Source: Chloroflexota bacterium
GTDB lineage: Bacteria; Chloroflexota; Dormibacteria; Dormibacterales; Dormibacteraceae
Reading direction: 5' to 3'
Assembly: GCA_005881025.1 (NCBI GenBank)
Contig: VBFO01000108.1
Location: 1 to 36,994 of the forward strand
DNA: 36,994 nucleotides
Positions 11,588 through 12,149 of the stretch are shown here, piece by piece. Position 1 is the stretch's first letter. The number at the start of each line of letters is the position of its first letter. The notes under the pieces were generated by a model, which was not told the DNA's origin, did no database searches, and saw only the letters and a program-made list of their open reading frames with translations. Position numbers and translations under genes: made by a program.

Positions 11588-11615
11588 AGACTGAGTCTAT
11601 CTGTGCGCCGAAGCG

Positions 11616-11957
11616 CTACTTGATCACCTGCGGCACGGCTAGCGCGCCGGCTGCGAGGAGGACCAGCATGGCTCCTGCGACAAAGGCCAGGCGCTTGAGA
11701 TCGCTTCGGAAATGCGGGACACGGTCGAGCGGAATTGAAGGATCGGCCGACTCGACGACCATCCGTCCGCGAGAGCCCTTGACAACTTTGTTGGTTCCGC
11801 CGAGGGACATCTCAACGGCCCTGACCAGCGCCTGGTCTCCACCCACCCTGGCTTGGGATTGCGGGCGCTGAACGCCCGCCGCAGTCATCGCAGGCGCCGA
11901 TGCCTTGACCGGGGGGCGGAACTTGGCGCGGGCCTTCTTGCGGCTCTTGCGGCTCAA
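11616..11957 (-). CDS. Hypothetical basic protein with C-terminal TM helix
   Basis: MSRKSRKKARAKFRPPVKAS...HFRSDLKRLAFVAGAMLVLLAAGALAVPQVIK; TTG start; lies downstream of a strong promoter-like element. Confidence 0.6.
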   Translation of the reverse strand: MSRKSRKKARAKFRPPVKASAPAMTAAGVQRPQSQARVGGDQALVRAVEMSLGGTNKVVKGSRGRMVVESADPSIPLDRVPHFRSDLKRLAFVAGAMLVLLAAGALAVPQVIK

Positions 11958-12114
11958 CTCAAGTCGAGTCTAACGCTCGGGTGGGAAGCAGGCAGGCGGA
12001 TGAAGGGGCCGGTGCTGGGTCGTGGGGTGGGACGACGAGGGGTGCTCCGCCTGCCTGTCTTTGGGCCGTGGGACTCAACGAACTACGTTGTGGGCTACGA
12101 CATGTTGTGTCCCA
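11958..12114 (-). ncRNA. Candidate structured leader or small RNA
   Basis: No long ORF; 12-bp perfect inverted repeat (CAGGCAGGCGGA near 11990-12000 / TCCGCCTGCCTG near 12045-12056) enclosing a GTCGT-CCCACCCC-ACGAC hairpin; second stem GGGAC(T)CAAC...GTTG(T)GTCCC (9/10) near 12070-12112. Confidence 0.45.
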
Positions 12115-12120
12115 ATGCCA

Positions 12121-12149
12121 GTTATAACCCCGAATGTAGTTGCTGTCAA
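12121..12149 (-). promoter_or_regulatory. Near-consensus sigma70-type promoter
   Basis: Minus strand reads TTGACA-(17 nt)-TATAAC: -35 at 12144-12149, -10 at 12121-12126. Confidence 0.65.

Follow-up and report, generated by a model that had tools for sequence, protein, structure and literature searches.

Does the gap between an MFS gene and the gene for a 113-residue protein (p113) encode a regulatory RNA of its own or the structured leader of p113, and what might control it? The gap lies in the window, the whole 36,994-nt stretch of DNA analyzed here, which comes from a member of the Dormibacteria, a widespread and poorly studied class of soil bacteria whose lineage also goes by the name Dormibacterota.

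A strong promoter directed into a two-hairpin RNA

An initial annotation of the window had placed a minus-strand promoter of the form TTGACA-N17-TATAAC at 12149-12121, overlapping the MFS stop codon and firing into the gap. We found this promoter in the sequence at exactly that position, with a 17-bp spacer, with its -35 hexamer overlapping the MFS stop codon at 12146, and directed into a two-hairpin RNA of ~130 nt (~12113-11987). The promoter and the RNA comprise the following features:

12144..12149, minus strand: -35 hexamer TTGACA of the RNA promoter, from the sequence; invariant or nearly so among relatives
12121..12126, minus strand: -10 hexamer TATAAC, from the sequence and its conservation
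11987..12113, minus strand: small RNA core; matched from 12113 to 11987/11986 by each of the covariance models, R1 and R2
12070..12113, minus strand: hairpin 1, GGGAC-A-CAAC ... GUUG-A-GUCCC; 99.3% of alignment cells paired, compensatory changes at 2 pairs
11987..12059, minus strand: hairpin 2, a 12-13 bp stem, GACAGGCAGGCGG / CCGCCUGCCUG, with a ~45-nt C-rich loop

Judged by its sequence, the promoter is of the strong sigma70 type, and it was missed by a generic promoter scan because that scan requires T as the last base of the -10 box. Transcription is predicted to start at about 12115-12113 and to end just beyond hairpin 2. The predicted fold has an energy of -53.1 kcal/mol, compared with -40.1 +/- 3.4 kcal/mol in dinucleotide shuffles (z = -3.8), and 0 of 200 shuffles were equally stable. 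The structural elements described earlier are all present in the window sequence, i.e., a 12-bp perfect inverted repeat (CAGGCAGGCGGA/TCCGCCTGCCTG), an inner hairpin (GUCGU-CCCACCCC-ACGAC) and a separate GGGAC/GUCCC stem.

Distribution of the RNA in the Dormibacteria

A 211-base query gave matches that extended from the -35 box across the RNA in 18 of 41 related genomes. The search within the family was extended with a 19-base pattern and then with the covariance model R1 (33 sequences), which found the RNA in 39 of 42 family genomes, in exactly one copy each and with a nearly constant length; the R1 search outside the window's family gave no match. Because promoter, hairpin 1, linker and hairpin 2 have been kept together in these 39 genomes, the locus is not a product of chance. 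In one genome (G021) the RNA seems to have been lost and a remnant of the promoter is left, and absences from single genomes are weak evidence since MAG genomes are incomplete.

The ArsA gene was used as a landmark to reach the intergenic region in other families of the class, and a diverged version of the RNA was found in the same ArsA-neighbor region of sister families. The model R2, which was built from 12 sister-family sequences only, detected the RNA in 34 genomes of families f2 and f4 (17 of 32 and 17 of 18, respectively). It also recovered the window locus and two of its relatives, with a genome-wide E value of 1.4e-4 for the window RNA, and over 334 kb of family loci it matched the RNA only, in 15 of 19 sources. 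The RNA was not found in family f3, and searches of as many as 400 genomes from the rest of the phylum with R1 or R2 gave no homologue. In these searches the RNA was found only in the class Dormibacteria, and it appears specific to it as a new structured RNA family that spans most of the class. A match in Aquisalimonas (L029) had neither the promoter nor the hairpins and was rejected as chance.

Compensatory changes in both hairpins

Collecting homologues and examining the stems for covariation, as suggested in the initial annotation, revealed compensatory changes in both hairpins, assessed against shuffle and slid controls. Both sides were changed in 9 of 29 pairs within the family (reached in 0 of 500 shuffles; slid controls gave 0-3) and in 6 of 14 pairs in the sister families (0 of 500 shuffles), these counts being alignment-based with related sequences included. 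Hairpin 2 was paired in 97% of cells and changed on both sides in 6 of 13 pairs, and its stem is shared by the sister families. Basal members carry GGAAC/GUUCU or GAGGC/GCCCUC in place of GGGAC/GUCCC in hairpin 1, and AAGUG/CACUU in place of the GGCGG/CCGCC portion of hairpin 2. Hairpin 1 has diverged in G004, G007, G011 and G013, yet its stem is retained. The least conserved element is the inner hairpin (87% of cells paired), which is absent, together with part of the loop, at two loci (L003 and L004).

Hairpin 2 is the probable terminator in our model of the transcript; the U tract that follows it is weak in the window and poor in many genomes. REP-like hairpins (CTCCCCAC..GTGGGGAG) have repeatedly been inserted just 3' of the RNA (L042, L010, L012, L014 and L027), and at L042 (also L064, genome G105) hairpin 2 has been replaced by a REP-like hairpin.

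An RNR-type tandem operator over the promoter and the 5' end

The first ~20 nt of the family RNA, GGGACACAACATNTCGTAG, form a near-fixed block with one free position, and the promoter spacer is likewise conserved. NrdR is a repressor that shuts off the synthesis of DNA building blocks; this dATP sensor is nearly universal and is regarded as specific for the genes of ribonucleotide reductase (RNR). The initial annotation had recognized the promoter as near-consensus but had missed tandem NrdR-type boxes that lie over the promoter and the 5' end of the RNA:

12127..12142, minus strand: predicted NrdR box 1, CAACTACATTCGGGGT, in the -35/-10 spacer, from an RNR-trained matrix
12095..12110, minus strand: predicted NrdR box 2, ACACAACATGTCGTAG, overlapping nt 4-19 of the RNA

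The presence of predicted box 2 would explain why ACACAACATNTCGTAG is ultra-conserved with one free position, which corresponds to position 10 of the box, where no base is specified. The same 5' sequence was considered as an antisense seed, and this was rejected: it has no conserved complement elsewhere in 15 genomes. In the window, the two boxes start 32 bp apart with a 16-bp gap, and the right half of predicted box 1 is weak. At the same two sites, sister families have CCACAACATTCTGTGG and GCACAAGATGTGGCCC, or CCACATCATGATGTGC and CCACAAGATGTTGGGC, with starts 31 or 32 bp apart. The C4 and G13 pairs of the 16-bp palindrome are present in both predicted window boxes and in nearly all relatives. 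With scoring confined to offsets 31 and 32, 49 of 49 loci had a gap of 15 or 16 bp; when offsets 17-45 were allowed, an anchored box had its best partner at 31-32 in 15 of 18 cases. In the NrdR structure, the protein grips a pair of palindromic boxes that are separated by about three helix turns and overlap the start site, and the conserved GC pairs lie at 9/18 and 40/49, at a distance of 9 bp inside each box and of 31 bp from one box to the other (PMC9110341); NrdR binds well across gaps of 14-17 bp (PMC12051234). The NrdR-controlled RNR promoters of S. coelicolor nrdRJ and E. coli nrdHIEF likewise have two 16-bp palindromic boxes, ~three helix turns apart, which overlap the promoter and start site as do the predicted boxes here (PMC9110341, PMC12051234). 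The transcript of those promoters is the RNR operon, whereas here it is a non-coding RNA.

The matrix was trained on 15 box pairs upstream of RNR genes, and RNA promoters were kept out of the training set. Its sites were found with a consensus that was matched to the papers only afterwards, and the sole check on them was their location upstream of RNR genes; at the RNR loci used, the best tandem pair fell upstream of the RNR gene, with a spacing of 31 or 32 bp. When the matrix was scanned over family loci at offsets 31 and 32 only, the RNA promoter outscored every other pair in 18 of 18 loci (295,405 positions), with scores of 13.4-23.0 compared with 12.0 for the best other site; in the window, it scored 17.4 and the runner-up 11.0. 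In f2 and f4 the RNA promoter again came first, in 31 of 31 loci and invariably with a spacing of 31 or 32 bp. Symmetric permuted matrices ranked it first in a mean of 2.6 of 18 loci, with a maximum of 16 of 18 for some that keep the AnATnT core. Across whole genomes, the tandem pattern occurred at 116 sites in 20 genomes versus 11 for the reversed control, and the window's genome has five such sites, the RNA and the RNR gene among them. NrdR is encoded in 17 of 17 genomes tested and the RNR large subunit in 16 of 17; the motif at the RNA is the one found at RNR genes of the same genomes. In view of the matrix ranking, the permutations and the genome-wide counts, it is well supported that the RNA promoter bears an RNR-type tandem operator, and from this sequence match we infer that NrdR binds there.

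The promoter and 5' end of a stand-alone RNA might instead be the operator of another regulator that recognizes a similar tandem palindrome: NrdR control is read from sequence, and box pairs near parA, smc and purB exceed the RNR-only targets usual for NrdR. We consider this improbable, because the boxes match the RNR-upstream boxes of the same genomes in sequence, spacing and center, and NrdR is present in all genomes tested, so that a single regulator, NrdR, is the simplest reading.

Relationship of the RNA to p113

The gene downstream of the RNA and its promoter element are as follows:

11616..11957, minus strand: p113, the 113-aa gene, a neighbor outside the RNA unit; basic N terminus and single C-terminal membrane segment
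11967..11972, minus strand: TAGACT, p113's own -10 box; TA[N][AG]CT is found 5-13 nt before the start at 33 of 36 family loci

The gene order in the window's family is aspartokinase - ychF - (variable genes) - RNA - p113 - ArsA ATPase - small protein - M50 peptidase - selA - selB. No Pfam family matched p113; the protein has the shape of a tail-anchored protein, and its gene adjoins that of an ArsA/Get3-type ATPase with an HSP20-like domain.

That the RNA is a structured 5' leader or riboswitch-like attenuator of p113, the second possibility raised in the initial annotation, would fit its location beside p113 in nearly all genomes, mostly on the same strand, and its terminator-like hairpin end. 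However, in three f2 genera (G025, G027 and G043) the RNA lies on the strand opposite p113 and is transcribed away from it, and p113 has its own conserved -10 box, of the TARACT type; both results contradict the proposal. A cis-acting leader lies upstream of the gene that it regulates and is co-transcribed with it, which does not describe an RNA that is inverted in three genera and adjoins a gene with its own promoter. Furthermore, the distance from the RNA to p113 ranges from 138 to 393 nt among family loci, insertions of up to ~230 nt separate them, in many genomes repeat elements have been inserted there, and antiterminator pairing was not seen. A leader role is excluded at the inverted loci and, as far as the sequences indicate, unnecessary at the remaining ones, and we regard it as very unlikely.

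With a -10 box of its own 5-13 nt before the start codon, p113 mRNA is probably leaderless. Both arsA and p113 have TAGACT 6-9 nt before their start codons (11594-11599 and 11967-11972) and no evident Shine-Dalgarno sequence; both mRNAs are probably leaderless, and leaderless mRNAs may be common in the class.

Comparison with known RNA families

The Rfam search called for by the initial annotation was run, and no known family matched the RNA. There was no match at the gathering score, and at E values up to 10 the search returned one chance CRISPR-repeat match only, outside the RNA; no 6S model matched there, as had been stated earlier. Although similar length, a strong promoter, one copy per genome and a structured transcript could point to a divergent form of 6S or of another housekeeping RNA, we find this scarcely credible, given that Rfam finds nothing in it even at E 10, that RNA-bearing genomes (G004, G005, G007, G012, G016, G019, G033 and G037) have a sub-threshold 6S match elsewhere, and that the RNA, with its two hairpins, has neither the closing stem nor the central bubble of 6S. 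It shares size and one copy per genome with 6S RNA (RF00013) and differs from it in architecture and locus. Separately, the sub-threshold 6S matches at other Dormibacteria loci (L085-L092), which score 33-46 bits against a gathering score of 46.4, are probably true 6S RNAs, too diverged for Rfam to recognize. A small ORF within the RNA (AUG UCG UAG in the window) was also rejected, as indels are not multiples of three; its AUG is lost because the third base varies freely.

The evidence supports the RNA as a previously unnamed structured RNA family and a single-copy gene of its own. The conserved strong promoter, the covarying hairpins, the lack of an Rfam family and the single copy uphold the first reading of the initial annotation, a novel regulatory RNA, but not the second, a leader of the 113-aa gene. 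Comparative evidence establishes the family, its structure, its independence from p113 and the identity of its operator with those of RNR genes.

Proposed mechanism and possible targets

Our results most likely reflect a stand-alone, class-specific small RNA of ~130 nt, with a sigma70-type promoter that contains two NrdR boxes and is repressed by NrdR when dATP is high. From the features described above, we infer NrdR binding, termination, targets and mode of action. NrdR loaded with dATP and ATP would occupy both boxes and block RNA polymerase; one box lies between the -35 and -10 hexamers and the other, at a distance of 31-32 bp or three helix turns, over the initial ~20 bp of the transcript. 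Because the promoter would be covered in this state, the RNA is expected at low dATP, together with ribonucleotide reductase. In the folded transcript, a 5' hairpin would be followed by a long 3' hairpin, the latter probably also terminating transcription, and the exposed C-rich loops could base-pair with the G-rich ribosome-binding regions of mRNA targets. This suggests a regulatory RNA tied to the cell's supply of DNA precursors, a link that is direct and testable because the operator has been identified. The NrdR literature examined contained no case of an NrdR-controlled non-coding RNA and, as far as it shows, this would be the first small RNA under NrdR.

The loops had been described as C-rich, and unpaired loop 2 is indeed about 48-49% C in three families whose sequences differ considerably. 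In family f4 (L141, L145, L146 and L150), the loop holds CCUCCUU, the core of the 16S anti-Shine-Dalgarno sequence. The C-rich loops of three families and the f4 motif make pairing with Shine-Dalgarno or ribosome-binding sites of target mRNAs the most likely mode of action, which we put forward as a tentative guess. The loops showed no excess complementarity to the 5' ends of RNR and nrdR mRNAs, and direct pairing with these mRNA starts was set aside. In Gram-positive bacteria, the S. aureus Rsa RNAs (UCCC motif) and Listeria LhrC are likewise small structured RNAs with exposed C-rich single-stranded loops (PMC3861533, PMC4132741); they belong to another phylum and are unrelated in sequence and structure to the RNA described here, which is under predicted NrdR control.

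Finally, the tandem sites in several Dormibacteria genomes hint at an NrdR regulon wider than the RNR genes. It is possible, though doubtful, that NrdR in this class governs a broader program of DNA synthesis and chromosome segregation (RNR, parAB and smc), with the RNA as its post-transcriptional arm; if so, the RNA would be made at low dATP and would retune translation for replication. Tandem NrdR-type boxes 32 bp apart were observed at the starts of parA (L261 and L262; upstream of ParB) and smc (L266 and L267), and such boxes are also present at L264 (a purB-like lyase), L259 (a 193-aa protein) and L260.
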